Shown: positions 34,442-48,729 of the stretch, piece by piece
Numbering within the stretch: the first letter of the stretch is position 1
How the letters are laid out: each line of letters begins with the position of its first letter
Source of the DNA: Lyngbya sp. HA4199-MV5
GTDB lineage: Bacteria > Cyanobacteriota > Cyanobacteriia > Leptolyngbyales > Leptolyngbyaceae
NCBI GenBank assembly: GCA_019359375.1
Contig: JAHHHL010000003.1
Span: 124,001-188,000 of the forward strand
Length of the DNA stretch: 64,000 nucleotides
Direction of reading: 5' to 3'
Position numbers and translations under genes: made by a program
Notes under the pieces: generated by a model
The model's input: only the letters and a program-made list of their open reading frames with translations
Told to the model about the DNA's origin: nothing
Databases searched by the model: none

Positions 34442-34705
34442 TTATAGCCCTAGCGTTGCTTTTGCACTTTCCCAGGAAATGCTACTGCCTTTTTCTGCTT
34501 GAAGAATGCTCTGGCGAAATTTAAAGGCAAATTCGGTATCGGTCAGAATGTCGAGAGTTTCGAGTAGCTCGGTGAGGTCTGTATAGCTGAGCGCCGCCAT
34601 AACAGGCACCCCATCTTGAGTAATGACGATGGGTTCGTCGGTCAGTTCACCGGGAAGGTTGGAGTGTTGTTGTTGTACCTGTGCGATCGTGAGTTGTTTG
34701 GGCAT
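34442..34705 (-). CDS. Phd/YefM-type antitoxin, without visible toxin
   Basis: From ATG 34705 the product is 87 residues: LTIAQVQQQHSNLPGELTDEPIVITQDGVPVMAALSYTDLTELLETLDIL. That is the Phd/YefM antitoxin fold, which binds its own promoter through the N-terminus and covers a RelE or Doc toxin with its C-terminus. The bases between its stop and alaS (94 bp) cannot hold a toxin, and the gene upstream is a Uma2 pseudogene on the other strand. It therefore looks solitary. It could also act as a free transcription repressor. Confidence 0.78.
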   Translation of the reverse strand: MPKQLTIAQVQQQHSNLPGELTDEPIVITQDGVPVMAALSYTDLTELLETLDILTDTEFAFKFRQSILQAEKGSSISWESAKATLGL

Positions 34706-34823
34706 AACACAAGCGGCTGGTCGGGTAAATTCACTGTAGCACCCGGTTTCTTGCAGAGCGATCGCACTTATTAACTGCTTTACACTAAAGTCAGCGGTAA
34801 CAGTGAAGCAGTAACAGGAAGCC

Positions 34824-35382
34824 ATGACTTCGACAAAGGTTCGCCTCTGGACAGTTGACGAATATCACCGCATGATAACAGCGGGCATTTTGACACCGAG
34901 CGATCGCGTGGAGCTTTTACAGGGACAGATTGTTAGGATGAGTCCTCAATTACCGCCTCATGCAGCAACGACGCAAAGAACAGCTCGTTACCTAGATCGG
35001 CTTTTAGCTAAGCGTGCATATATTAAGAATGCTACTTCCGGTCACGCTCCAGCCCAACTCTGAGCCAGAACCCGATATTGCGATCGTTCGCTTTGATGAC
35101 AAGGAATACTCTGATCGCCATCCCACACCAAGCGATATCTTCTGGCTAATTGAAGTTGCTGATACCTCGTTGCAAGACGATCGCACGGTCAAAGCACCTC
35201 TCTATGCCAAAGCGGGCATTTTGGAACACTGGATTTTGGATGTGAATACTCGACAGGTTTACGTGTTTCGTGATCCGCAGGATGATGGGTACGGGCAGGA
35301 AGTTGTTTTGACTGAAGAAAACACTCTGAGCGCGATCGCGTTTCCAGCACTGACCATCGCTTTAAACCAACTCTTTCCTTAA
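34824..35382 (+). pseudogene. Uma2 family gene 3, broken by a one-base frameshift
   Basis: The first frame reads VRLWTVDEYHRMITAGILTPSDRVELLQGQIVRMSP then YLDRLLAKRAYI. It then runs out of register and stops at 35061. The second frame resumes with LLPVTLQPNSEPEPDIAIVR, IFWLIEVADTSLQDDRTVK and AKAGILEHWILDVNTRQVYVFRD. Joined, they form a complete Uma2 protein. Removing one base in the ATTAAGAAT stretch near 35023-35030 restores the frame (AYI-R-M-LLPVTL). A sequencing error is possible; otherwise the gene is inactive. Confidence 0.85.
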
Positions 35383-35536: not shown

Positions 35537-36109
35537 ATGGCAGGTATTGTAAAGCCACCAACCCCTACACTGAAAGAGTTTCTGAAACAACCAGAAACAA
35601 AACCAGCAAGTGAATTTATCGACGGTCGAGTGGAGCAAAAGCCGATGCCCCAGGGGAAACACTCCCGTCTGCAACTCAGATTTTGTGATCAGGTCAATGA
35701 CATCGCAGAAACCACTCAGGTCATGATGGCCTTTCCAGAGCTGCGGTGTACATTTGGCGGACGGTCGATCGTACCCGATGCTACAGTAATTCGCTGGGAA
35801 CGCATTCCGTTCGATGCCGATGGTGAAGTTGCCAATGCGTTTGAAACTTACCCTGACTGGACAATTGAAATCCTTTCTCCAGACCAAACGACAACTAAGG
35901 TGATTCGCAATATTCTGCACTGCCTGAAGCATGGTTCCCAGTTGGGCTGGCTCATTGATCCAGAGGAACGAGTGATTTTGGTCTTTCTTCCAGAGCAACT
36001 ACCGATCGAATTAGTCGGTGATGCGGTGCTTCCAGTGTTGCCCAATTTGGCGCTGGCTCTCACCGTGAATGATGTGTTCGCGTGGTTGAAGGGCAGACAG
36101 CAAATCTGA
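35537..36109 (+). CDS. Uma2 family nuclease-like protein 4
   Basis: The 190-residue protein reads LKEFLKQPETKPASEFIDGRVEQKPMPQGKHSRLQL, then GGRSIVPDATVIRWERIP and YPDWTIEILSPDQTTTKVIRNILHCLKHGSQLGWLIDPEERVILVFLP. The conserved core (E in the first block, PD, E-x-L-S and the later acidic residue) is intact. Other Uma2 proteins have a Q-K-S-x-Y region where this one has NILHCLKHG. It is intact and follows the broken Uma2 copy on the same strand after 154 bases. Role unknown. Confidence 0.87.
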   Translation: MAGIVKPPTPTLKEFLKQPETKPASEFIDGRVEQKPMPQGKHSRLQLRFCDQVNDIAETTQVMMAFPELRCTFGGRSIVPDATVIRWERIPFDADGEVANAFETYPDWTIEILSPDQTTTKVIRNILHCLKHGSQLGWLIDPEERVILVFLPEQLPIELVGDAVLPVLPNLALALTVNDVFAWLKGRQQI

Positions 36110-36690
36110 CAGTGGCTTAGAGTTTCTGCCCTCAATGCGTCCACAATTGTCCTAATCGCATTCAATGAAAGCACGGGCGAGAGGAGCGATCGTGCTGCTG
36201 AGAAAGAGAAGCGCGAGTTTATACGCAGGCAGAACTCTCGATCGCCTGAACGTGCTTAACGGTAACTTCACCGTTAGTAACCACAGCTTTGCCGTTAGTA
36301 ACCACAGCTTCATCATTACTAACGATCGCTCTAGCGTAAGTAACCACAGCTTAAGCAGAAGTAACGACAATTTGTGCAGAAGTAACCAACGCTTGAGCGT
36401 AAGTAACGACAGCTCCAGTATTGGTAACGACGGCTTGAGCGTAAGTAACGAGCACTCGTGCCAAATCAACATTAGGAGAAATAGCTCTTGATGATGTGGA
36501 GAAGTAAATACCACACCACACCCTAAAAATCCTAAGTTTTCGGTCTTACCCCTTTCACATAGCTAATGTGCGGGCAAGATGCAGCCTAATCACCTAAACC
36601 AAAGACCTAAAATCTTTGTCTAGATAGATAAACTGACGAAGAACGTCTAGTAAGTGATTATGTATCATGGGAAATCATAAGGAAAAAATT
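36110..36690. other. Spacer containing the 21-bp repeat array
   Basis: No intact gene is supported. The array at 36277-36465 dominates the first part, and the last 200 bases are AT-rich and probably carry the promoter of the AT-rich orphan gene. Frames open across the array on both strands exist only because 21 is a multiple of three. Confidence 0.5.
36277..36465. repeat. Nine 21-bp tandem units
   Basis: Units starting GTAACCACAGCTT... or close variants follow every 21 bp, preceded by a partial unit at 36262. On the minus strand one frame reads heptapeptides of the type VVTYAQA and VVTNGKA, with one in-frame TAA, followed by VTVKHVQAIESSACV and a stop. This is a plausible remnant of a heptad-repeat protein. 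The units are diverged, so the array is old. Confidence 0.8.
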
Positions 36691-38256
36691 ATGGATGATT
36701 TTCTGGGATTTGTTGAGAAGGAGCTTGGCGAAAGCACTTGGGTTCCGTTATACAAAAATCTTGACAAAGATGATGGTTCTGAGGATGGATCTCTTTACTC
36801 ATGTTTAGTTGATCCATTAGAAACTGAGACAGTTATGAAAAACCATGGATGGGATCTTTGGCTTGGTAGAGGAGGACCATCGATTGTTACATCTGGCTCA
36901 GATATATGGTACGAGTTGAACTGCTCGAGTTTTCTACCCCTTGTGATCTATCGAGAGTTTCATGGCACTAGAGAATCTTACTTCGAAGTCCTTCAAGAGT
37001 TAGTTCTATATTTAAATTTATTTCATGACTCTAAAAACAAAAAATATGTGGTTGATGATGAGAATGGGACTGAAATCGAAGTAATCAAATATTCTGATTC
37101 GTTTTTTTCAATACGCAAATCATTTTTGTCTGCATTTATGTCTGCGCGACAATGCAACTTACTTCTATTTTTTGAAAAGACGAGGCATAAGAACAATATT
37201 GCTAGGCACCCGGATGAATTCTTCTATGGTAACAGAATTTCTTACACACGATATTGGGATACTTCATATGTGAAGGGTTTTGAAACTTTTATACGAGTCT
37301 GCGGTAAGAAGTTGTTTCACTGTATGGAGCGAAATGAAGAAAACACTTCTCCTTTTAAGTTAAATCAGGGTTATGAAGACTTTATGATTGATGGTGATGC
37401 TCATGACCACATATTGCATTCTTGTGATCCTTCACTGTTAGCTAATTACTTTGGGAAAAATCCAGGAAAGCCTCACTATCTGACACCTGTTTACTTTAAA
37501 AGAGGGGTTTTACAAAAGTATTATAACTCATCGACTGAATACGAAGTTAGAGACAGTTCAATCTACAAGAGAGGATTCTGGCGAGTAAGAATAGATAATA
37601 ACTCTCCAGATCACGTATGTGTCTTTCTTGGAGATTTAGGCAGAGACATACCTCATCTTGAACAGATTTACTGGAAGAGTTTCAATATAGCTCCTGAAGG
37701 CAGAAAGATGAGTAAAACCTACTTTAGAAGAAGTATGCTGGGAGAGTTTGCAAATGCAGAAGGTCCTGACTTGAAATTCAAATTTATATTTGAGAAGTTT
37801 CAAGAGAGATGGTATCAAGTGCACAACTGGTATTTATTCCTGCCCTTGGCAGAAGGGGATAAACATTGTTTCCAGACGTTGCATTCACTCACTAAAAATG
37901 AACAATCTGAATTTGATTCTCAGATTCTTTCTCTAGTGAAAATAACAATAGACTCAATTAACGTGAAGGAACTCAAGCAGAGGATTAGCATCGATGAAAA
38001 TGGCTCAATAAAGCTGCTGTCAAGTTACCTCAAAGAGAATGGAATTAGCTTTGATATTGCTGTTTTTCTTGGAGGATTACAAGATGTACGTTCTACTGGA
38101 GTTGCTCATAGGCGAGGATCAAAGTATGAAAAAGCTATAGAGAAACTAGGTGTTGTAGATGGTAACTTAAAGGGAGCTTTTGATAATATCCTTTCTAAGA
38201 TGACCAATTTTATAATTGAAGTTGGTGACATTCTTTTAGTGGCTCCAAAACGGTAG
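36691..38256 (+). CDS. AT-rich orphan protein of unknown function with a HEPN-like tail
   Basis: From ATG 36691 (AGGA 8 bases upstream; ATG 36667 is an alternative) the product is 521 residues. I recognise no named family. Well-formed blocks are HYLTPVYFKRGVLQKYY and HVCVFLGDLGRDIPHLEQIYWKSFNIAP, which read like conserved positions of a large uncharacterised bacterial family. The C-terminal helices contain LGGLQDVRSTGVAHRRGSKY, where R-x5-H resembles the R-x4-6-H site of HEPN ribonucleases. There is no signal peptide or membrane segment. Base composition is far AT-richer than neighbours and no HIP1 site is present, so the gene is probably a recent acquisition. Confidence 0.75.
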   Translation: MDDFLGFVEKELGESTWVPLYKNLDKDDGSEDGSLYSCLVDPLETETVMKNHGWDLWLGRGGPSIVTSGSDIWYELNCSSFLPLVIYREFHGTRESYFEVLQELVLYLNLFHDSKNKKYVVDDENGTEIEVIKYSDSFFSIRKSFLSAFMSARQCNLLLFFEKTRHKNNIARHPDEFFYGNRISYTRYWDTSYVKGFETFIRVCGKKLFHCMERNEENTSPFKLNQGYEDFMIDGDAHDHILHSCDPSLLANYFGKNPGKPHYLTPVYFKRGVLQKYYNSSTEYEVRDSSIYKRGFWRVRIDNNSPDHVCVFLGDLGRDIPHLEQIYWKSFNIAPEGRKMSKTYFRRSMLGEFANAEGPDLKFKFIFEKFQERWYQVHNWYLFLPLAEGDKHCFQTLHSLTKNEQSEFDSQILSLVKITIDSINVKELKQRISIDENGSIKLLSSYLKENGISFDIAVFLGGLQDVRSTGVAHRRGSKYEKAIEKLGVVDGNLKGAFDNILSKMTNFIIEVGDILLVAPKR

Positions 38257-38536: not shown

Positions 38537-38725
38537 ATGAGGTTTAGCGTGACGCTCGATCGCGATGAGGATGGCATTTGGATTGTGGAGTGTCCCAGTA
38601 TTCCGGGTTGCGTGAGTCAGGGACAAACACGACAAGAAGCTCTTGAAAACATTAAAGATGCGATCTCAGCTTGTCTACAGGTGCGGGCAGAGCTTGGAAT
38701 GCCGCTTACAGTCGAAACGTATTAA
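38537..38725 (+). CDS. hicB: HicB-like antitoxin with a premature stop
   Basis: The 62-residue product MRFSVTLDRDEDGIWIVECP, SIPGCVSQGQTRQEALENIK, VRAELGMPLTVETY is the HicB-like antitoxin fold. AGAGGG precedes the ATG. After the TAA at 38723-38725 the same frame continues with VEVVA and a TAG. Many HicB homologues end with such a Q-VEVxx tail, so CAA probably mutated to TAA. The original TAG overlapped the hicA start (TAGTG), which is the usual coupling. HicB neutralises HicA and represses the operon. Confidence 0.85.
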   Translation: MRFSVTLDRDEDGIWIVECPSIPGCVSQGQTRQEALENIKDAISACLQVRAELGMPLTVETY

Positions 38726-38742
38726 GTTGAGGTCGTAGCGTA

Positions 38743-38928
38743 GTGGGTTCTGCCGTTCCTGTCATGAGTGGGCGTGAGGTCGTGCGCGTCTTTGAATCTT
38801 TGGGTTGGAATGCTGTGCGGCAGACAGGTAGCCACATCATCATGGTTAAAGACGAGGAACTTGTAACACTTTCGGTTCCTGATCATCGTGAAGTAGCACG
38901 CGACCGAAATAATGGGGGCGATCGATAA
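38743..38928 (+). CDS. hicA: HicA-like mRNA interferase with an altered C-terminus
   Basis: The start GTG 38743 overlaps the ancestral hicB stop; ATG 38764 is an alternative. The product (about 61 residues) reads MSGREVVRVFESLGWNAVRQ, then TGSHIIMVKDEELVTLSVPDHREVA. The catalytic histidine in TGSH is intact. The usual C-terminal helix (GTLRSLIRxAGLT-type) is missing and replaced by RDRNNGGDR and a stop. The toxin may be unstable or inactive. With the shortened HicB, the pair looks like a decaying toxin-antitoxin module. Confidence 0.8.
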   Translation: MGSAVPVMSGREVVRVFESLGWNAVRQTGSHIIMVKDEELVTLSVPDHREVARDRNNGGDR

Positions 38929-39053: not shown

Positions 39054-39680
39054 ATGACCACTGCAATCAACCAACCAATCCAACAGCAACCAGTTAGCGT
39101 TGACGAGTTTCTTGCTCGTTACGGTGGCGATAACCGCTACGAATTGATTGATGGAGAGGTATTCGACTTGGAACCCACAGGCTTACATGAAGAGGTTGCA
39201 GCCTTCATTACCGCCAAGCTCTGTGTCCAAATCGACAGCAGAGGCTTACCCTGGTTTGTCCTCCAGCGAGGACTCTTGCGCCCTGCTAACAGTGGCATGA
39301 CCGCCTTTCGCCCTGACGTTGCAGTAGTTGATCGCGATGAACTGACCCAAGAGCCACTCTGGTCTGATCAGTCAATTCTGACGCTAGGCAGTTCCATTCA
39401 ATTTGTGGCAGAAGTTGTGAGTAGCAACTGGCAAAATGATTATGCCCGCAAGGTCGAAGACTATGCAGTTTTAGGCATTCCCGAGTATTGGATTGCAGAC
39501 TACGCAGGCTTAGGGGGAACTCGACATATTGGCAAGCCGAAGCAACCCACTTTATCTATCTGTACGCTTGTGAATGGGGAGTATGAAATCCAGCAACTTC
39601 GGGGCAATCAGACGATCGTCTCGCGAACCTTCCCAGGCTTAAACCTGACGGCTGAACAAGTGTTAAGAGCTGCGAGATAA
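39054..39680 (+). CDS. Uma2 family nuclease-like protein 5
   Basis: The 208-residue protein reads VSVDEFLARYGGDNRYELIDGEVFDLEP, then TAFRPDVAVVDRDEL, IQFVAEVVSSNWQNDYARKVEDYAVLGIPEYWIADYAGLGG and TFPGLNLTAEQVL. The Uma2 core is complete, with E, PD, E-V-V-S and the K-x-x-D-Y helix. An insertion (AGLGGTRHIGKPKQPTLSI) common to one Uma2 subgroup is present. It is closer in pattern to copy 2 than to copies 1 and 4. It is convergent with the helicase gene. Confidence 0.9.
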   Translation: MTTAINQPIQQQPVSVDEFLARYGGDNRYELIDGEVFDLEPTGLHEEVAAFITAKLCVQIDSRGLPWFVLQRGLLRPANSGMTAFRPDVAVVDRDELTQEPLWSDQSILTLGSSIQFVAEVVSSNWQNDYARKVEDYAVLGIPEYWIADYAGLGGTRHIGKPKQPTLSICTLVNGEYEIQQLRGNQTIVSRTFPGLNLTAEQVLRAAR

Positions 39681-39709: not shown

Positions 39710-41899
39710 CTACCAACTACGGACAACATTGCCTAACGCTTCAACGTCGAGATAATCGGCTGCAAACGCTCGACGCAGTAAGGTTGAGGGGATAAATTCG
39801 TCATATTTTTGCAGTTTAGGAGCTTCTTCTTCCGCCATTAGCTCGTCTGCACTCAGCCGACGATCGCTCAGCGACTTAAGTTCGTGATACAGGCTCACCG
39901 TGCTGCACTTGCCCATATTGACCACCAGGAAGTAGGGCGATCGTCCCATCACGCCTTTAATTTTCAGCGTTTCGCGACAGTGGAGGCGGAGAAAGCGTTC
40001 CAGGGTGCGAACGGCGATCGTCCCTGCCCAGGGTAGAATGCAGCAGGCGTTCCCTTCGAGGGGAAACAGGTAACTGCTCTCCAGTCCTTCTTTCTTGGCG
40101 AGGGTGCGGGCTTCTGCTAAACGCGCTTTAGCACCGGGCTGCAAGTAGGCGTAGTCAGTGTCTTCTAGCAGTGCCTGTCGCATGCGTTGCAGTACCCGGG
40201 TATGAATGTTACCACTGCTGCCACGCCAGGAAACGCTGGGGGAGCCGATCGCGGGTTTGACCTGAAGCACTTTGCGACGGCTGTTCACTTCTGTGACTTC
40301 CCAAATCCGTCCTGCTAGGGAGAGGCGATCGCCGACATCTGGCGGCACGACAACGGTACCTAACTCAATGCCATCACTCCAAACGGTATATTCCTCGCTG
40401 TCGGGGAAAATGGCGTAGAACTTAAAGTTGTTGACAAGACGTTCGGCGGCTAACCCAACAATTAGCCCGTTTTCGGGAGTGCGCTGAATGTGGTCTAGCT
40501 CAATCCAATGACGCAACACCTGACGGAAATCGTCTTGTGAAAGCGATCGGAAGGGCGGCAGGGTGAGAATGCGCTGTGCCAGGGATGCGGGAGAGAGTTC
40601 ACCCAGCGCGACGAGTGTACTCATGGTTTGCTGGTAGAGCAGGCTTAGGGGATAGTTCAAGGGAGCGATCGGTTCAATCCACTTTTCTTCGAGATAAAGC
40701 TGAATGACGGCAATACACTGGAGCAACTGCCAGGGAAGGCGTTCGGGAAGCGATTCGCCGCCTGTGGGTTTGTCTTCGGCGCACACAAACCGCATGTCAG
40801 CAGGGCTACCCCGCCTGCCCGATCGCCCCAATCGCTGCAAAAAGCTGGCTACAGAGGGGGGTGCTTCAAGCTGAATGACGCGATCGAGCTGTCCCAGATC
40901 AATCCCCATCTCAAACGTCACCGTAGCCGCTGTCACAGTGGGGCTTGTGGGGTCACGCATGGCGTTTTCTGCCGCTTCTCGCAGGGATGCCGCAATGCTG
41001 CCGTGATGGACGTGGTACACATCAGGAAAGCCTTTTGCCTGAGCGATTTGCCGCAGAGAGGCAATGACGTTTTCAGTCTCAGAGCGTCCGTTGGCAAAAA
41101 TCAGGCACTTACGGGAGTGACTTTGCTCGAATAAGTGACGCTGATAGGGGCTGAATGCTCTATCTCGCGTATCGCCCCTTGCTCGCACGGTGAGGCTGGA
41201 GGTGTAAAAGTGTTCGAGCGCCAACTGAATGGTGTGGGGTGTAGCAGGCAGATGCGGGGTGATGACGGGACGATCGGTGCCCGATCGCAACCAATCCTCC
41301 GCCATTCCATAGTCACCCAGCGTTGCCGATAGTCCAACCCGTCGCGGGTGATTTTGAGTAATTTGGGCGAGTCGGGAGAGCTGGCACAGGATTTGCGCCC
41401 CGCGATCGGAGCCAATAAAGGCATGAATTTCATCAACAATGACAAAGCGTAAAGCTCCAAACAGGCGATGTAGTTCGGCATGCTTGTTGATCAGCAAACT
41501 CTCTAGCGATTCGGGCGTAATTTGTAAAATACCCTGGGGTCGCTTCAGTAAGTTGGTTTTGCGGCTTTGCTTGACATCACCATGCCACGCCCAAACCGGG
41601 ATATCGGCTTGTTTCAAGAGGTCTGTGAGGCGATCGAACTGGTCATTAATGAGTGCTTTGATGGGACCAATGTACATGGCACCGATCGTGGATGGTGGCT
41701 CATTATGAAGTAGCGTTAGCACGGGTAGAAAAGCCGCCTCTGTTTTGCCGGATGCGGTTCCAGCTGCAATCAGCAAATGCGCGTCAGTTTCAAACACAAC
41801 GCGGCAGGCTTCTACCTGTACCGGACGCAGATCTGCCCAACCCTCACGGTAGATATATTCCTGGATAAAAGGCGCAAGATAATGATAGGGAGAGGTCAT
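39710..41899 (-). CDS. Lhr-like DEAD/DEAH helicase (BrxHI-like)
   Basis: The 729-residue superfamily 2 helicase shows LRPVQVEAC (Q-like motif), AAGTASGKTEAAFLP (motif I), YIGPIKALINDQ (Ia), ITPESLESLL (Ib), VIVDEIHAFIGSDRGAQ (motif II, DEIH) and VGLSATLGD (III). EMGIDLGQLDRVIQ and QRLGRSGRRGSPADM (VI) follow. The C-terminal third has Lhr-type winged-helix parts. It unwinds nucleic acid with ATP. The next minus-strand gene upstream is a BrxD-like ATPase. The two occur together in type 2 BREX and in TerB-linked clusters, so a defence role is possible. It is convergent with Uma2 copy 5. Confidence 0.88.
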   Translation of the reverse strand: MTSPYHYLAPFIQEYIYREGWADLRPVQVEACRVVFETDAHLLIAAGTASGKTEAAFLPVLTLLHNEPPSTIGAMYIGPIKALINDQFDRLTDLLKQADIPVWAWHGDVKQSRKTNLLKRPQGILQITPESLESLLINKHAELHRLFGALRFVIVDEIHAFIGSDRGAQILCQLSRLAQITQNHPRRVGLSATLGDYGMAEDWLRSGTDRPVITPHLPATPHTIQLALEHFYTSSLTVRARGDTRDRAFSPYQRHLFEQSHSRKCLIFANGRSETENVIASLRQIAQAKGFPDVYHVHHGSIAASLREAAENAMRDPTSPTVTAATVTFEMGIDLGQLDRVIQLEAPPSVASFLQRLGRSGRRGSPADMRFVCAEDKPTGGESLPERLPWQLLQCIAVIQLYLEEKWIEPIAPLNYPLSLLYQQTMSTLVALGELSPASLAQRILTLPPFRSLSQDDFRQVLRHWIELDHIQRTPENGLIVGLAAERLVNNFKFYAIFPDSEEYTVWSDGIELGTVVVPPDVGDRLSLAGRIWEVTEVNSRRKVLQVKPAIGSPSVSWRGSSGNIHTRVLQRMRQALLEDTDYAYLQPGAKARLAEARTLAKKEGLESSYLFPLEGNACCILPWAGTIAVRTLERFLRLHCRETLKIKGVMGRSPYFLVVNMGKCSTVSLYHELKSLSDRRLSADELMAEEEAPKLQKYDEFIPSTLLRRAFAADYLDVEALGNVVRSW

Positions 41900-42332
41900 A
41901 TCAGGTGCTAAGAACTACATTTAAAATTGCTTGACCTGTAATGCGAAATACATGACTTCAGTGACGATCGCAACCGCTTAAAGCAGGAATAAGTGCAGCG
42001 TTTTTAGAGGATTGAACGAGCAGCTTCCAGCACATATGCCTGTCTTTGAAAGCGAATTTAACGTAACTTAGCATCTTGTTGCAGAAAGACTTTCATAACG
42101 CTGTAACCCATCGATTATCGCGTTGGTGTCTGCTTCTAAACCGTCTTTTCATGCAAAGCTGGTGGTTCAAGCGTAGACGCAGGCATGTCTTCTTTCTTTA
42201 GATAATTAAATTTTTTGATACGCATAAGATTTTGTTAGGGTGAGCGGTATACTCTATACCAGTGTGAGCTTAGTAAGCATAAATTGCTATGTGCTAAGCA
42301 TCTGTTCCTTAGGTTTTTAGGAGAGTCGAGTT
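41900..42332. other. Spacer between the helicase gene and glsB-like gene
   Basis: No gene is seen in 433 bases. It contains the divergent promoters of the helicase and the GlsB-like gene. The only clear signal is the palindrome at 42246-42260. Confidence 0.45.
42246..42260 (+). promoter_or_regulatory. Palindrome overlapping a -10-like box upstream of glsB-like gene
   Basis: GGTATA-CTC-TATACC is a perfect inverted repeat with a three-base centre. It overlaps TATACT, a good -10 match, about 73 bases before the ATG of the GlsB-like gene. A repressor bound here would block the promoter. This is inferred from sequence only. Confidence 0.4.
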
Positions 42333-42602
42333 ATGAATCTGATTGCGTGGATTGTTTTAGGTTTAATTGCAGGCGCGATCGCAAAAGCGATTTACCCTGG
42401 CACCCAGGGCGGCGGCATTCTGGCGACGCTCGTTTTGGGCGTGGTTGGTGCTTTTATCGGTGGCACATTGTTCACGCTGTTAACAACAGGGACATTTGCT
42501 TTAGCGGCTCCAGGCTTTAGTATTGGTGGCATCGTTGTCGCAATTCTTGGCGCGATCGTAGCGATCTTCTTGTGGGGTTTGATTACTCGTCGTGCGGCTT
42601 AA
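42333..42602 (+). CDS. GlsB/YeaQ/YmgE family stress membrane protein
   Basis: The 89-residue protein reads MNLIAWIVLGLIAGAIAKAI, then GGGILATLVLGVVGAFIGGTLF and IGGIVVAILGAIVAIFLWGLI. It has three membrane helices rich in glycine and the family G-x-x-A-G-x-x-A-K motif. Despite the old name (transglycosylase-associated), no enzyme role is shown; members respond to envelope or acid stress. AGGAG lies 12 bases before the ATG. It sits on the opposite strand between the helicase and BrxD-like genes, splitting them. Confidence 0.93.
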   Translation: MNLIAWIVLGLIAGAIAKAIYPGTQGGGILATLVLGVVGAFIGGTLFTLLTTGTFALAAPGFSIGGIVVAILGAIVAIFLWGLITRRAA

Positions 42603-42629
42603 ATCATAACGCTGCTTGTAGGGGCAACT

Positions 42630-42699
42630 TGTAGGGACAAAGGGAGCGATCGCCTCTGGGTTGTCATACCAGAGACTCATGAGCGCACTTGTCCCTACA
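42630..42699. repeat. Nested inverted repeat (cruciform) after the glsB-like gene
   Basis: Perfect 11-bp arms TGTAGGGACAA and TTGTCCCTACA enclose a second hairpin, CTCTGG/CCAGAG. It lies between two convergent genes, so it may act as a terminator, but no T-run follows. The GTAGGGGC-type arms suggest a small dispersed repeat. Confidence 0.7.
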
Positions 42700-42762
42700 G
42701 CTATCCAGCTAAGGCTTATCCAGCTTACGACTACTATTGTCGTTCTCTCTAGACAGTTCTCT

Positions 42763-44091
42763 CTAGACAGTGAATTCAGCAAACTCGTTCGTTTCTTCGA
42801 TCGCAGGACTGTTTTGTACCTTCGACGGTTGAAACGTGTGGCTTTGCATTAGTTGATTGAGTGTCATTTGAGGATGCTGCTGCAAGACGTTGAGGAGACC
42901 CATAAAATCGCGTACCACTTCACCTGGCGTGATTAGGGTTTCTGCACCCACCCGGTTCGTCACGGCTCCTAAGAAATCGTGGAGTTCTCGTTCAGTCAAT
43001 CGCGGTTTGCTGTCGTGATGTGCGGCGTGAATCTCTGACAAGCGCTGCAACAGCCCTAAAAGATCGTCCTTGCCGAGTGGCTCTAGCCAAATGGCAGGAC
43101 CCGAAACATCTTCAGTGCCCACCGTGACGAAGCGGCTTTTGGCGGTACGGCGCTGCCATGCCGGGTCACTGTACAATCCCCGACGCGGATCTTCTAGCAG
43201 TTGGGGGGTGCCTCCAATGACTGTGCCCAAAAAGCTGACCCGACCTTGCATGGCATCGTTGAACATGGCAAGCAGCTTGTCGTAGTTGTTCTGGCGGGCG
43301 ATCGCGGTGTTGATTTTATACAGGTGAATCGCCTCATCCAGGATGATGAGTAAGCCCTTGTAGCCAATATCTGACACAAAGCGGGCAAAAAGCTTGATGT
43401 AGTCGTACCATGTTTCGTCATCGATAATCACCCGCACGCCTAAAGCCGCACGCGCCTCTGTTTTGGTCGGAAATTCGCCACGCAGCCAGCGCAGTGCAGC
43501 AGTTTTCTTGCTGTCGTCATCGGTACGATAACCCGACCAGTAGGCAATGATGACATTGGCAAACTCAAACCCGTTGACCAGATCGGCAACATCAGTGACG
43601 ACTTCGCGGATCTTTGCTTCCACATGACCATCAAAGCCGTCATCGTTTGGCTTCTTGCCCGTTTCCTGTGCGACCTGTGTTTGGATACCCGCAATCCAAC
43701 GCTCTAGAATAATCGTCAGTGCACCGCCATCAGGACGGCTCTTGGTTGCCAGGTTATGCATCAGTTCGCGGTAGGTAGCAACGCCTGCCCCATTGCTGCC
43801 AGCTAACCGACGCTCTGGGGTAAGATCCGCATCGGCAACGACAAAGCCCTGTTCCATCGCCTGATTGCGGAGCAATTGCAGCGTGAAGCTTTTGCCTGCC
43901 CCATAGCGCCCCACCACAAACCGAAAAGCCGCTCCCCCTGCCGCAATGTTATCCAGGTCTTCCAGGAGGGCAAGGACTTCCCGTTCGCGCCCCACAGCAA
44001 TGTGTTCTAACCCCACACGCGGCACTACTCCCGCACTGAGGGCATTGATCAGCGCAGTCGAGATGCGTTTGGACAGTTTTGGGGATGACAT
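42763..44091 (-). CDS. BrxD-like ATPase (DUF2791 / BREX ATP-binding domain)
   Basis: From ATG 44091 (GTG 44109 possible) the product is about 442 residues: KLSKRISTALINALSAG, GLEHIAVGREREVLALLEDL, Walker A FVVGRYGAGKSFTLQLLRN and Walker B GLLIILDEAIHLY. A sensor-like FLGTVIGGTPQLLEDP and a helical tail with LITPGEVVRDFMGLL follow. It matches the DUF2791 family that includes BrxD of type 2 BREX. The role is unknown; it is an AAA-type regulator or motor. BREX genes pglX, pglZ and pglW are not nearby, and no TerB gene is seen. The upstream neighbour is a hybrid kinase on the other strand. Confidence 0.85.
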   Translation of the reverse strand: MSSPKLSKRISTALINALSAGVVPRVGLEHIAVGREREVLALLEDLDNIAAGGAAFRFVVGRYGAGKSFTLQLLRNQAMEQGFVVADADLTPERRLAGSNGAGVATYRELMHNLATKSRPDGGALTIILERWIAGIQTQVAQETGKKPNDDGFDGHVEAKIREVVTDVADLVNGFEFANVIIAYWSGYRTDDDSKKTAALRWLRGEFPTKTEARAALGVRVIIDDETWYDYIKLFARFVSDIGYKGLLIILDEAIHLYKINTAIARQNNYDKLLAMFNDAMQGRVSFLGTVIGGTPQLLEDPRRGLYSDPAWQRRTAKSRFVTVGTEDVSGPAIWLEPLGKDDLLGLLQRLSEIHAAHHDSKPRLTERELHDFLGAVTNRVGAETLITPGEVVRDFMGLLNVLQQHPQMTLNQLMQSHTFQPSKVQNSPAIEETNEFAEFTV

Positions 44092-44583
44092 AGGCGTTTG
44101 GAGGTTCACTTGTACCCCGGTTCATCTGTACCAGGACGATCGCTTATTCATCATAGTAAGACCTGAACGGGGATACTCCACGACTCGCTGTAGGATTCAT
44201 CAGTTGCATGCGATCGCACGAGCGATCGCGGCTCGAATCGGTGATATAACCTACATGGTAATTTCACGAGACTTGGTACTGAATTTTACTGAGTCTTTGC
44301 TAGCGTATAACTAGCGGATCGGCTGCAATAGCTGGCAATAATTGTTGAGACAACAGGGGTAACGAGGCACCCGTCTGCCAACTGATTCAGTAGAACCGCT
44401 GAGACAAGTCTGATTTTAAACTGGTTACTTTTTTTATATTTTTTCTTACGCTTGCTTCAAGCCCCATCGGCATCAGGTTGTTGAGTGAGTGCCACTTGAC
44501 TGTTGGTCGCGCTGCTTTAATCAAGGCTCCAGGTTCAAACAGCATCCAGTTGAATCGAAGCGTCTGTTGATAAAAGGATTATT
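44092..44583. other. Spacer between the BrxD-like gene and hybrid kinase gene
   Basis: No gene is supported in 492 bases. It contains two HIP1 sites (near 44213 and 44223) and a very T-rich run near 44428-44450. The spacer probably carries both divergent promoters. Confidence 0.4.
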
Positions 44584-46701
44584 ATGCATCAGTGCTCATA
44601 CGGGTTGGGATGGCAATGTGCCGATACATCATCCTACAGCCCACTTACAAGCAATTCTCTACCGAGCGTGCTCCCAGCGAATCGTTCGATCATCGAGTGC
44701 CCTGCTCCTCACATGCTGCCGACGATGCCCACTGACGCGGTACCAGAAAACGCGGTACCAGAAAATTTGCAGTCAACGGTGCAGCAGTTAACAGCAGAAC
44801 TACAGGCAGAACGTTGTCTTAACCGTTTGGGGCAACGGCTGAATGCTTGCGTGGTAGCAGCCCTTACGATCGATCACGAAACCGCTTTCTGCGACACCCA
44901 CAAGGCATTGGCGCGCGTGCTGGCGGATGAGTTAAACCAGGGACTAGCACAAAGCTGTGCAATCGTGCTGCGGAGCGGAGATGCAACGAGTCATTGCATT
45001 GCCACTTCTGCACAAACCCTGGAACCCTGTTTCACTGTTTGTGCGATCGCGGCAAGCCATCTCCAATCGGCACTGGGGGATACGTCTTTTCCGACTATGA
45101 CTGCGCTACTGCCGTTTGTGTTGGGGCAGACCTTGACTGAGCGCGAACTGCAAAGCTGGCACACTCAGTTTCCGGCTTGCGGCTGTCCCATCGTCGATGG
45201 ACAGGTGATCTTAGGTTGGCTGTTGCTAGCTCCTGCTGCAACTGATTTTCAGCCAGAAACCGCCAATGGACTGTCATCATTCACAGCTTGCTTAAAGGCA
45301 GGTCTGATTGAGCAGAGCCTCGATCGCTATCGGTCGGCGCGGCGGCAAGTTGAGTTGGTTCAGGCGCAAGCACAGCAACGCCAAGCGCTAGAAGCCTCCA
45401 ACCGCGAATTGACTCAAGCGAATCACCTGAAAAGCGAATTTTTGGCAAACACCAGCCATGAGATCCGCACGCCGCTGAGTTCGATTTTGGGCTTTACCCA
45501 CCTCATGCGCGAACAGGGGTTTAGCCCCAGCAATCTCAAGCATCAGGAATATCTCAACATTATCTTGAGCAGTGGTCAGCACCTGCTATCGCTGATTAAC
45601 GACATTCTCGATCTCTCAAAAATTGAAGCGAACCAGCTTGATCTGCACTGGGAAACGGTGGCAGTGAAGGCAGTGTGCCAAACCGCGATCGCCCTGGTGC
45701 GAGAAAAGGCAAACGATAAGGGACTGGCACTCAAGCTAGAGATTGCGCCCCAGGTGGAGACTCTTGTAGCTGACCCACTACGGCTCAAGCAAATGCTGTT
45801 TAACCTGCTGTCGAATGCACTCAAGTTTACCCGCCAGGGAAGTGTGGGACTACAGGTAACTGCCAGCGATGCAATTCGTTTTACCGTTTGGGATACAGGT
45901 ACAGGCATTTCGGAAGACCAGCAGCAGTTGCTCTTTCGCCCGTATGCACAGCTTTTGAATACGGCTGCCAAACGGGACGAAGGCACTGGCTTGGGATTAG
46001 CGCTCACCCAGAAACTCGCAGAACTGCACGGCGGATGCGTAGAAATTCGATCGCAGCTTGGTCAAGGCTCGCACTTTACGATCGTGCTTCCCCTGGAGCC
46101 TCCCGCGATCACAGATAGCAACACGGCTCGCGCTGAATCGGCTCGACCGACACCTGCGCCCAACCCAGCGGTTGGAGAGGGGTGTGAGCAATGCCCGGTG
46201 CCCGGTACCCCAGTGGAGGGCACAATGGTTGATAATGCCAGGTTTGATAGCCCAATGGCAAAGCCTTCTCCCCTGTCTGTGATGCTTTCGCAGTCAGGCA
46301 TACCCATTCGATCAAACCATCTTTTGCTGGTCGAAGATAATGCCTACAACGCCAAATTGCTGCTCACATATCTGAGCAAATTGGGCTACGAACTGACTTG
46401 GGTAAAAGATGGTAAGGAGATGAAGCAGGCACTGACCCGCGCACTGCCAGCTTTGATTTTGATGGATGTTCATCTACCTGGCGATAATGGTCTGGCGTTA
46501 ACGCATCAGCTTCAGACGGACGATCGCTACCGAGCGATTCCCATTATCGCGCAAACGGCGATGGCGATGAGTGGCGATCGTGACCTTTGCCTACAGGCTG
46601 GAACCGTCGCCTATATCTCTAAGCCCATTGATCTAAAAGCGTTGGCGCAGTTGGTTAGAAAATACGTCCCAGGCTTGAAGGAGGTTAAGGCAGAAGACTG
46701 A
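44584..46701 (+). CDS. Hybrid sensor histidine kinase / response regulator
   Basis: The product is 705 residues from ATG 44584, which has AAAGGA about six bases upstream. The first 110 residues are low-complexity, with a duplicated AVPEN. A GAF-like region follows (about 90-240), then a coiled linker. The HisKA domain has SEFLANTSHEIRTPLSSILGF (His about 292). The HATPase domain has LFNLLSNALKFT, WDTGTGISEDQ and GTGLGLALTQKLAE. A C-terminal receiver domain has LLLVEDNAYNAKL, LILMDVHLPG (Asp about 628) and YISKPID. There is no membrane segment, so it is probably cytosolic. Signal and targets are unknown. It may work with the CHAT-FHA protein that follows. Confidence 0.93.
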   Translation: MHQCSYGLGWQCADTSSYSPLTSNSLPSVLPANRSIIECPAPHMLPTMPTDAVPENAVPENLQSTVQQLTAELQAERCLNRLGQRLNACVVAALTIDHETAFCDTHKALARVLADELNQGLAQSCAIVLRSGDATSHCIATSAQTLEPCFTVCAIAASHLQSALGDTSFPTMTALLPFVLGQTLTERELQSWHTQFPACGCPIVDGQVILGWLLLAPAATDFQPETANGLSSFTACLKAGLIEQSLDRYRSARRQVELVQAQAQQRQALEASNRELTQANHLKSEFLANTSHEIRTPLSSILGFTHLMREQGFSPSNLKHQEYLNIILSSGQHLLSLINDILDLSKIEANQLDLHWETVAVKAVCQTAIALVREKANDKGLALKLEIAPQVETLVADPLRLKQMLFNLLSNALKFTRQGSVGLQVTASDAIRFTVWDTGTGISEDQQQLLFRPYAQLLNTAAKRDEGTGLGLALTQKLAELHGGCVEIRSQLGQGSHFTIVLPLEPPAITDSNTARAESARPTPAPNPAVGEGCEQCPVPGTPVEGTMVDNARFDSPMAKPSPLSVMLSQSGIPIRSNHLLLVEDNAYNAKLLLTYLSKLGYELTWVKDGKEMKQALTRALPALILMDVHLPGDNGLALTHQLQTDDRYRAIPIIAQTAMAMSGDRDLCLQAGTVAYISKPIDLKALAQLVRKYVPGLKEVKAED

Positions 46702-46995: not shown

Positions 46996-48729
46996 ATGTC
47001 TTTGTCTGAAATTCCCTGCTTGAATTTGGCGATCGCTCCCCTACGGACAGCCAGTCACTTCGCCATCCATGTGACTCAAGCTCCATATCCAGGGGGCTAT
47101 GTTTTGCATGATTGTCTTTGGGCTGAGGCTCAAAACCAGCTATGGCTGGGGTGGCAAGACATGTTTTCGGCGAGAAGCCTACCCAATGTGCCGCAGGTGT
47201 CGCAGGTCGATGCGTTGCCTCCCGATTTGGTGTTGCCGCTGGATGCGTCCCCGCCAACCCCTGGTCAGCCGGTTAGCCAATCCGGTCGATTGATGCAAAA
47301 CCTGGGTATTAGCTTGTGGCAGTGGTTATTCGATGGTCCCATTCAAGGGAGCCTCGATCATAGCCAGGGCATTGCGATGGGGCAATCTAAACCATTGCGG
47401 TTGCGGCTAGAAATTCGAGATCCCAATTTGGTGGCGCTGCCCTGGGAAATCATGCAGGATGGGGCGGGGAAGCAACCCATTTCACTTCGGCAGCAGTTGT
47501 TGTTTAGCCGTACGACGAGCGATGTCCATTCGTTACCGACGCTGCGATCGGACAACATCCTTAAAATTCTGCTCGTTTTAGGCGAAGACTCTGAACCCCC
47601 TTCAGAAAACACGGGATCAGGGCTGGCTAACCGTGCCCACCCTGGCGCTTCACAGACCTTACAGCTTGAGCAAGAAGCGAATGTGTTGGCGCATCTGCTC
47701 ACAACCTCTGGCAGCAGTGGCATTGGCGGGGCAACCATTACGCCCTGTCAGGTGGATACGCTGGTGCAGCCCACTCCAGCCGCTCTCATCAGTCAACTGG
47801 AGAGACAGACCTACAATGTCTTTTTTTACGCTGGGCACGGGATTCCGGCTCCTGACGGCGGGCTGCTGTTTTTGCGACCTGACATGACCCTCAATGGTAC
47901 GGAACTAGCACAAGTGCTGACGCGCTGCCAGGTAAAACTGGCTGTGTTCAACGCCTGCTGGGGTGCTCAGCCCGATCACGAAACAGTTTCGACAGCTTCG
48001 ACCAATGGGGACGCAATCCGATCGCAAGCCATCTCGCGCAGCAGTTTAGCGGAGGTGCTGATTCATCATGGCGTTCCGGCTGTGTTGGGTATGCGCGATT
48101 CCATTACCGACGAAGAAGCGCTGAGCTTTATCCAAGCCTTTGCCAGGGCGCTCTCAGGACGGGTGCCGATCGACCAGGCAGTTGCCGTAGCGCGACAGCA
48201 CTTGCTCACGCTGTATCGCTTTAACCAGCAAGCCTGGACGCTGCCGGTTCTTTATATGCATCCTGAATTTGATGGCGAACTGCTCCAGCCCCTCGAAGGT
48301 GGCATGACGGCAATGCCGGGACCCATTACCCGGTTGGGGCAACCGAAGCCCGATGCCGCCCTGCGATCGCTCACGACTGCAAAAGTCTGGCATATTCAGG
48401 GTGGCTTTATGCGCGTGGGCAGAGATCGGGCTGAAAACGATCTGGTGCTGCAAGAAGACCAGGGTGGAGTCTCTCGCAAACATGCGGTGATTTTTTGTCG
48501 CCAGTCTCACAATGGCGGCACTGAGTTAGCGTACTTTCTCGAAGATTTCTCTCGCTTTGGCACCTGGATGCTAGAGCCTGGGCTGGAAACACATGGATGG
48601 CGTAAAGTGCATCGTCAAGAAGTGCCGCTCAAACCTGGTAGCCATTTGAAGTTTGGCAGCACGCACAACGAGGCGCTAGAGTTTACGATCGCGGTGGATC
48701 TTCCGGGGGGCGATCGTGCTGCTAGCTGA
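46996..48729 (+). CDS. CHAT protease domain fused to an FHA domain
   Basis: The 577-residue protein has a CHAT (caspase-like) domain at about residues 130-420. The strand PWEIMQD lies ahead of the catalytic pair: YNVFFYAGHGI (His about 281) and LAVFNACWGA (Cys about 321). Supporting motifs are GTELAQVL and SSLAEVLIHHGVPAVLGMRDSITD. An FHA domain follows (about 470-570), with FMRVGRDRAENDLVL, GGVSRKHAVIF and FSRFGTWM, which binds phosphothreonine. This suggests a phospho-gated protease. CHAT proteases in bacteria appear in defence and cell-death systems, but here no classic gasdermin or Csx29 partner is near. An upstream spacer of repeats separates it from the hybrid kinase. Confidence 0.9.
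   Translation: MSLSEIPCLNLAIAPLRTASHFAIHVTQAPYPGGYVLHDCLWAEAQNQLWLGWQDMFSARSLPNVPQVSQVDALPPDLVLPLDASPPTPGQPVSQSGRLMQNLGISLWQWLFDGPIQGSLDHSQGIAMGQSKPLRLRLEIRDPNLVALPWEIMQDGAGKQPISLRQQLLFSRTTSDVHSLPTLRSDNILKILLVLGEDSEPPSENTGSGLANRAHPGASQTLQLEQEANVLAHLLTTSGSSGIGGATITPCQVDTLVQPTPAALISQLERQTYNVFFYAGHGIPAPDGGLLFLRPDMTLNGTELAQVLTRCQVKLAVFNACWGAQPDHETVSTASTNGDAIRSQAISRSSLAEVLIHHGVPAVLGMRDSITDEEALSFIQAFARALSGRVPIDQAVAVARQHLLTLYRFNQQAWTLPVLYMHPEFDGELLQPLEGGMTAMPGPITRLGQPKPDAALRSLTTAKVWHIQGGFMRVGRDRAENDLVLQEDQGGVSRKHAVIFCRQSHNGGTELAYFLEDFSRFGTWMLEPGLETHGWRKVHRQEVPLKPGSHLKFGSTHNEALEFTIAVDLPGGDRAAS

Follow-up and report, generated by a model that had tools for sequence, protein, structure and literature searches.

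Shango is best known as a three-gene operon of Pseudomonas aeruginosa PA14 encoding a TerB-like protein (SngA), an ATPase (SngB) and a helicase (SngC), and the passages drawn upon from its description place it in a defence hotspot and credit it with modest (10-100-fold) protection against many phages (PMC10250203). A homologous ATPase-helicase pair, the BrxD-BrxHI dyad, belongs to type 2 bacteriophage exclusion (BREX) systems; BrxD has been classed as an ATPase of the origin recognition complex (ORC)/Cdc6 type, and the section of the comparison used here raises the possibility that it loads or activates its partner BrxHI (PMC12839542). Moreover, an excerpt of the paper on Hachiman groups SngC with BrxHI, DruE and DpdJ in a potentially distinct clade of immune helicases (PMC12278908). 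We focused our attention on a window of 64 kb (64,000 nucleotides) from Lyngbya sp. HA4199-MV5 (contig JAHHHL010000003.1, positions 124,001 to 188,000), which carries an ATPase gene and a helicase gene of these families. With a probability of roughly three in four, we read the two as the SngB and SngC parts of a Shango-type system that is dispersed, its likely third part, an SngA-like protein, being encoded on another contig of the same genome. No description of a dispersed cyanobacterial Shango was found in the open-licence literature, as judged from listings and a few passages. A 2012 review of the Ter proteins may deal with a link between TerB-C, helicase and ATPase.

The helicase open reading frame (ORF; 39710-41899, minus strand, 729 amino acids) matched the Pfam families DEAD, Helicase_C and WH_Lhr, and the ATPase ORF, which ends at 42763 on the same strand, matched BrxC_BrxD (PF10923) with 540 bits over nearly its full length. 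Between the two, on the opposite strand, lies a GlsB-like gene (Pfam Transgly_assoc, 89 amino acids). ORFs and Pfam matches thus agree with an earlier note on this DNA, which had described an Lhr-like helicase and a DUF2791 ATPase on one strand with a GlsB-like gene opposite between them. That note had also placed the end of the ATPase gene at 44091, and the ATG found there (442 amino acids) is indeed its likely start, rather than the GTG at 44109 (448 amino acids), because in genome G005 a stop codon lies just upstream of the equivalent ATG; 442 amino acids is also the length of 11 of the 17 homologues extracted from family f7. Here and below, G, L and C numbers designate genomes (G000 being the window's own), loci and contigs, f and g numbers designate family and genus groups, and the letters A, B and C alone stand for the SngA-like protein, SngB and SngC. 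The features are as follows:

39710 to 41899, minus strand: sngC-like gene, Ski2/Lhr-type superfamily 2 helicase of 729 amino acids, present in 7/7 genomes of the genus
41741 to 41755, minus strand: SngC motif I, Walker A (ASGKT, residues 49-53), from pattern search
41423 to 41437, minus strand: SngC motif II (VDEIH, residues 155-159), from pattern search
42763 to 44091, minus strand: sngB-like gene, DUF2791 / BrxC_BrxD-type AAA+ ATPase of 442 amino acids
43885 to 43911, minus strand: SngB Walker A (GRYGAGKSF, residues 67-75 of the 448-amino-acid reading), from pattern search
42766 to 42786, minus strand: conserved C-terminal tail of SngB (EFAEFTV), a possible docking peptide
42333 to 42602, plus strand: GlsB-like (Transgly_assoc) gene, judged a bystander outside the system

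Pattern search also placed the Walker B motif of SngB (LLIILDE) at residue 253 and the SngC motifs SAT and QRLGRSGR at residues 191 and 355; Walker A and B of SngB and motifs I, II, III and VI of SngC are all intact. All seven genomes of the genus carry an SngB homologue, those of the relatives being 87-93% identical to the window's.

With the PADLOC models, the helicase scored 817 bits for SngC (E 4.5e-246, residues 3-726 of 729), as compared to 429 and 248 bits for two BrxHI models and only 39 bits for a HamB model, and the ATPase scored 576 bits for SngB as compared to 184 bits for BrxD, the SngB and SngC models thus outscoring the BREX models by about 390 bits each. The ATPase reached 188 bits with the NCBIfam model BREX_BrxD, below the cut-off of 350 and short of what type 2 BREX requires. 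These relations are reversed in G002, a genome of the same genus which, besides its own SngB-SngC pair, has a type 2-like BREX locus with PglX-PglZ-BrxD-BrxHI (L022:106-12731): there, BrxD scored 552 vs 145 for SngB, and BrxHI 910 vs 461 for SngC. In phylogenies covering 46 ATPases and 43 helicases (L206 and L207 having no helicase row), in which long branches were flagged, all 28 cyanobacterial rows formed a single clade on the Shango side for both proteins, neighbouring a canonical Paenibacillus operon of TerB_N protein, ATPase and helicase. BREX-type rows (10 ATPases, 8 helicases), a label set beforehand from lower SngB/SngC scores and checked for BREX neighbours in the L022 locus only, split off with support of 100/100 in the SngB tree and 97/93 in the SngC tree. 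By sequence, the window pair is consequently assigned to SngB and SngC of Shango type, rather than to BrxD and BrxHI. The genome has one PglZ match, on the 10.8-kb contig C76, unlinked to the window, and none is encoded with the pair. On that contig (L066:5795-10499), PglZ (1204 bits with one PADLOC model) is followed by BrxL (937 bits), which by these matches is part of a separate BREX locus.

The third component was sought in the rest of the genome (6.9 Mb, 95 contigs), where the SngA model has one match, on contig C18: a protein of 501 amino acids (L023:8920-10425), whose C-terminus matches Pfam TerB_C with 44 bits (cut-off 26.3) and which coiled-coil models also match. It is located at least 72 kb from the B-C pair, as its contig ends about 15 kb past the gene and the pair is at least 57 kb from its own contig ends. 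The TerB-linked module proposed in the earlier note therefore came close to what the genome holds, with a TerB_C partner present, unlinked and of a different build; as for the TerB and PglZ genes to be looked for outside the window, they are represented by this protein and by the unlinked PglZ that accompanies BrxL on C76. Canonical SngA, as in G024, has TerB_N, TerB and TerB_C domains. Overall, G000 has the SngB-type ATPase and the SngC-type helicase of Shango, and has neither an SngA with all three TerB domains nor a three-gene operon; with these two canonical features lacking, it represents a variant and not a plain member of the system.

Hydropathy analysis showed two N-terminal hydrophobic stretches in four of five cyanobacterial SngA-like proteins and one in the fifth, and, among three canonical-type SngA proteins examined, one in G128 and none in G024 and G022. 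A structure prediction for the homologue from Stenomitos rutilans (L072, 78% identity to the own SngA-like protein) placed two helices at residues 3-23 and 27-99, followed by a long one (coil) at 164-315 and, at 412-508, by a C-terminal domain with a predicted local distance difference test (pLDDT) score mostly of 88-96. The best rows in a structural comparison of this domain, a list in which absence excludes no family, were mostly winged-helix domains, including those of Cdc6/ORC proteins, which is suggestive of a winged-helix-like fold for TerB_C. Among solved structures, no sequence relative was found for SngB at E <= 0.001 or 0.01, nor for the TerB_C alignment at E <= 1. The SngA alignment was made without L128. 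The TerB_C domain carries a net charge of -5 to -16, and its presumed recognition helix one of -2 to -4; a DNA-binding role was considered and doubted on account of this acidity, and a role in protein docking is preferred because the domain is acidic.

To evaluate whether the three genes belong together, 194 genomes across the phylum were searched, the window's class being taken as Cyanobacteriia, judged from named relatives. SngB was called above 500 bits, SngC above 700 bits and A with a TerB_C model; the 700-bit floor was adopted because weaker SngC matches include Lhr-type helicases, seen at E 1e-50 in 6 of 14 control genomes. In the genus of the window, B, C and A are present in 7/7 genomes, with B and C adjacent in all seven and A on a contig other than theirs in all seven, these genomes being drafts of up to 700 contigs. 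SngB was found in 26 of the 194 genomes, 22 of them in the window's class, and all 22 also have SngC and an SngA-like protein; at the thresholds used, neither B nor C occurs in any genome of this class without the other two parts. The count for A rose from 21/22 to 22/22 with G068, whose SngA was missed by the PADLOC SngA model and found with the TerB_C alignment, a model of 27 rows which come mostly from genomes of the same sample, G068 not being among them. The co-occurrence spans four sampled cyanobacterial families (f1, f7, f15 and f21). With "together" limited to 5 kb, and with contigs that are partly draft (those of G122 being short), A, B and C lie together in nine genomes, A and B together with C apart in ten, B and C together with A apart in two (G068 and the window's own), and in the remaining one no two of the three are close; hence, A is next to B in 19/22, and helicase and ATPase are apart in 11/22. 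Within six contigs of 6-7 Mb, B and C are separated by 52, 292 and 344 kb and by 1.9, 3.0 and 3.7 Mb, and since such gaps occur inside single contigs the separation is real, and not an effect of assembly. As A and B are adjacent in 19/22 and all three are together in 9/22, an operon looks like the ancestral state from which the scattered forms arose. The pairing on which the earlier note relied therefore held as co-occurrence in 22/22 genomes and failed as adjacency in half of them, that is, pairing without linkage.

In three genomes from outside the class (G022, G024 and G128) the genes for A, B and C follow one another, and in a fourth, G044, a 4.6-kb contig carries A and B but lacks C. When named genomes were searched with the A alignment, 189 stretches encoding a relative were returned, of which 79 loci were retained; they come from many Nostocaceae and from species resembling Leptolyngbya, Stenomitos and Phormidesmis. 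B lies inside 62/79 and C inside 17/79 of these loci, many of which are cut by contig ends. Thirty-seven of the 79 genomes were then searched in full, among them every one of the 17 whose locus has no B (9/37 share coordinates with genomes of the 194, so that the counts overlap), and B was found in 35 and C in 35. The misses are all metagenome-assembled genomes: the one with locus L081 (2.6 Mb) lacks both, the one with L075 lacks B and the one with L091 lacks C. Among the 17 without B in the locus, 15 hold both genes elsewhere, on one contig in six and on separate contigs in nine.

Inheritance was assessed with trees of B, C and alanyl-tRNA synthetase (AlaRS) from 27 genomes, with distances compared among 25 cyanobacteria (G173 lay outside the AlaRS comparison, its AlaRS match being in two pieces). 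Patristic distances correlated at 0.94 for AlaRS-B, 0.87 for AlaRS-C and 0.91 for B-C (Pearson), 16, 15 and 20 of 24 splits were shared, respectively, and families f1 and f7 were each a single clade in all three trees. We read these trees as mainly vertical descent of B and C, and claim no specific co-evolution, because B and C agree with each other in distance about as well as each does with AlaRS. Within the genus, ratios of nonsynonymous to synonymous substitution (dN/dS, Nei-Gojobori counts, with synonymous sites near saturation in many pairs) were 0.03-0.06 for B (12/15 pairs defined, the other three being saturated at synonymous sites; six of the seven genomes, without G005), 0.04-0.07 for C (21 pairs) and 0.11-0.17 for A (10 pairs; five of the seven genomes, without G004 and G006). 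The closest pair, G000-G003, gave 0.128 for A, 0.037 for B and 0.045 for C. Judged by these counts, the genes are under purifying selection and not decaying. On plasmids, relatives of SngB were found in 682 records, 540 of them predicted conjugative, all below 60% identity and some possibly BrxD. A TerB N-terminal gene touches the SngB-relative match in 13 of the 20 plasmid matches listed, and the four annotated plasmid loci examined, out of the 682 records, all have the canonical order of TerB N-terminal protein, ATPase and helicase.

Several observations weigh against a dispersed Shango-type system. Five genomes of genus group g16 have A by the TerB_C model and neither B nor C, so that an independent role for A is possible; two further g16 genomes (G078 and G133) have all three genes. 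In two of the five (L067 and L068), tblastn at E up to 1 found no remnant of B or C beside A, and the gene on A's other side is conserved, which hints at A acting alone or at a loss in progress. Outside the class, G056 and G059 have a match to the SngA model without SngB. The co-occurrence clusters in related families, and the counts ignore kinship. In the own genome, Pfam recognizes neither TerB_N nor TerB in the SngA-like protein, and the gene of this protein is unlinked, its partnership with B and C relying on co-occurrence and on linkage in other genera, and a hydrophobic N-terminus is not exclusive to the cyanobacterial form, as seen in G128. The structural comparison of TerB_C gave Z scores of 6.0-7.1, below 8, where a match can reflect merely a common arrangement; Foldseek returned no match for the predicted SngA at E <= 0.001, and the prediction for SngB (mean pLDDT 51.6) was too poor to use. 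Finally, vertical descent and strong purifying selection suit housekeeping as well as defence.

This last point bears on the role of the system: lasting defence from the chromosome and genome upkeep by a domesticated machine would both fit the sequence data. The possibility that a Shango-derived trio has been turned from phage defence to DNA repair, replication restart or chromosome-membrane tethering is one that we rate somewhat short of even; being a variant of the dispersed Shango-type reading as to role, it overlaps with it in probability. It is favoured by mainly vertical inheritance, low dN/dS, presence in 7/7 genomes of the genus and genes that are dispersed and not in a cassette, in contrast with the 682 plasmid records, mostly predicted conjugative, of SngB relatives. 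However, with SngB in only 26/194 genomes and B and C missing in five g16 genomes, the trio is not essential, and old, vertically inherited defence loci also exist.

The remaining explanations concern what the pair is. A remnant of type 2 BREX, that is BrxD-BrxHI after loss of pglX, pglZ and pglW, would account for the shared domain families and for the unlinked PglZ and BrxL on C76; this reading, akin to one option of the earlier note, was rejected and is very unlikely, given the far higher SngB and SngC scores, the missed BREX_BrxD cut-off, the separate clades and the coexistence in G002 of a PglX-PglZ-BrxD-BrxHI locus with an SngB-SngC pair. The same note had also envisaged a two-gene system, alone or with GlsB as its membrane part. 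This is an improbable arrangement even with B and C adjacent in 7/7 genomes of the genus and GlsB between them in 6/7 (own included), as an SngA-like protein accompanies B and C in 22/22 class genomes, next to B in 19/22, and GlsB was not found between the genes in G005, where the gap of about 125 bp was the only interval examined. GlsB was rejected as the membrane component because of this absence in G005 and because a protein matching SngA and with predicted membrane helices exists elsewhere in the genome, and it looks like a bystander. The splitting of the pair by an unrelated gene, the unlinked partner and a split Uma2 gene nearby could also point to a decaying leftover of a lost defence island, which is hardly credible for genes with intact motifs and with dN/dS of 0.03-0.07 in the 33/36 B and C pairs with a defined ratio.

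For the dispersed Shango-type system, we propose that SngB, an ORC/Cdc6-like AAA+ ATPase, would use ATP to load the SngC helicase or to switch it on, by extension from the loader role suggested for its sister BrxD on BrxHI. The acidic TerB_C domain of SngA, predicted to be winged-helix-like, would dock the ATPase-helicase pair, for which the SngB tail is a possible docking peptide: its A-E-F motif is invariant in 29/29 rows of alignment A3 and present in 25/28 cyanobacterial tails (G036, G097 and G107 differ, with F kept), and similar acidic-hydrophobic ends are found in the canonical SngB of G024 (DDDELASFRL), in G044 and in one BrxD of L022. The coil and membrane anchor of the cyanobacterial protein could then hold the complex at the membrane, where it would meet and process entering phage DNA or abnormal DNA. 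Going further, one may tentatively picture a membrane-tethered, origin-recognition-like surveillance of DNA, in which anchored SngA provides in trans the winged helix that the Cdc6-like SngB lacks, and a broken-up Shango operon has become fixed as chromosomal housekeeping or innate immunity in several cyanobacterial families; we consider this extension rather doubtful.

The surroundings of the pair were analyzed with a Pfam scan of 14 ORFs, all between 34442 and 49605 of the 64 kb. Within these ORFs, no pglX, pglZ or TerB was found, and to that extent only the earlier note's statement that the window lacks them holds; PglX and PglW were likewise absent from the 14 ORFs, no genome-wide search having been made for either. 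Three Uma2 genes were recognized by Pfam, at 35537-36109, at 39054-39680 and as one gene split in two overlapping frames on the plus strand (34824-35063, the start of the model, and 35014-35382, the remainder), likely by a frameshift, together with HicB and HicA, which form a pair at 38537-38928; an ORF at 34442-34825 is Phd-like but scored under the Pfam cut-off. The idea of a defence-like island, also put forward in that note, fared poorly: when two Uma2 genes, HicA, HicB, Phd and the orphan ORF described below were compared by tblastn (E 1e-4) with the SngB-SngC regions (16-20 kb) of six relatives, the sole match was one Uma2 at 28% identity (L017), whereas the histidine kinase adjoining SngB is kept in 5/6 relatives (6/7 genomes of the genus, own included).

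The orphan ORF (36667-38256, plus strand, 529 amino acids) has no Pfam, PADLOC or NCBIfam match and sits in a stretch of low guanine-cytosine content (0.355 at 37000-37999 vs 0.44-0.57 in the other 1-kb steps of 34-46 kb). At 36236-36470, direct repeats with a 21-base step, in eight overlapping copies of an 88-base stretch, lie within an ORF, the plus-strand reading of which is an SN-rich repeat. On the other side of the pair, the kinase next to SngB in 6/7 genomes is a hybrid histidine kinase (44584-46701), and it adjoins a gene for a single protein with a CHAT domain followed by an FHA domain (46996-48729, plus strand).

Defence systems are usually found by gene neighbourhood, and the rules of PADLOC and DefenseFinder are neighbourhood-based. 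With scattered parts, such callers may miss or misname systems of this kind, and, if the surveillance picture were true, tools that require neighbouring genes could not see a dispersed system at all. Moreover, the predicted membrane anchor of SngA is a clue to the possible site of Shango action, and the natural lack of TerB_N and TerB in this variant gives a hint as to the portion of SngA on which the ATPase-helicase pair depends.

In comparison with Shango (SngABC) of P. aeruginosa PA14 and E. coli, the cyanobacterial form has the same SngB ATPase and SngC helicase families and a co-occurring TerB_C protein. It differs in that its SngA-like protein matches neither TerB_N nor TerB, while predicted membrane helices and a coiled coil are present; in that its genes are scattered in many species, whereas the canonical system is a three-gene operon; and in that it is mainly vertically inherited, whereas the PA14 system lies in a defence hotspot and has relatives on plasmids. 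With the BrxD-BrxHI dyad of type 2 BREX it shares a homologous ATPase-helicase pair, but the proteins fall in other clades, no PglZ stands beside the window pair and a genuine dyad occurs elsewhere in a relative (L022). Hachiman (HamAB) couples a sensor helicase to an effector nuclease, and SngC belongs to the same proposed clade of immune helicases, as far as the excerpt of the Hachiman paper goes; SngC, however, scores 39 bits with a HamB model vs 817 with its own, and HamA did not appear among the matches obtained with the window proteins. Altogether, the pair is better filed as part of a probable dispersed variant of Shango, with an SngA predicted to be membrane-anchored, than as an orphan BREX pair.

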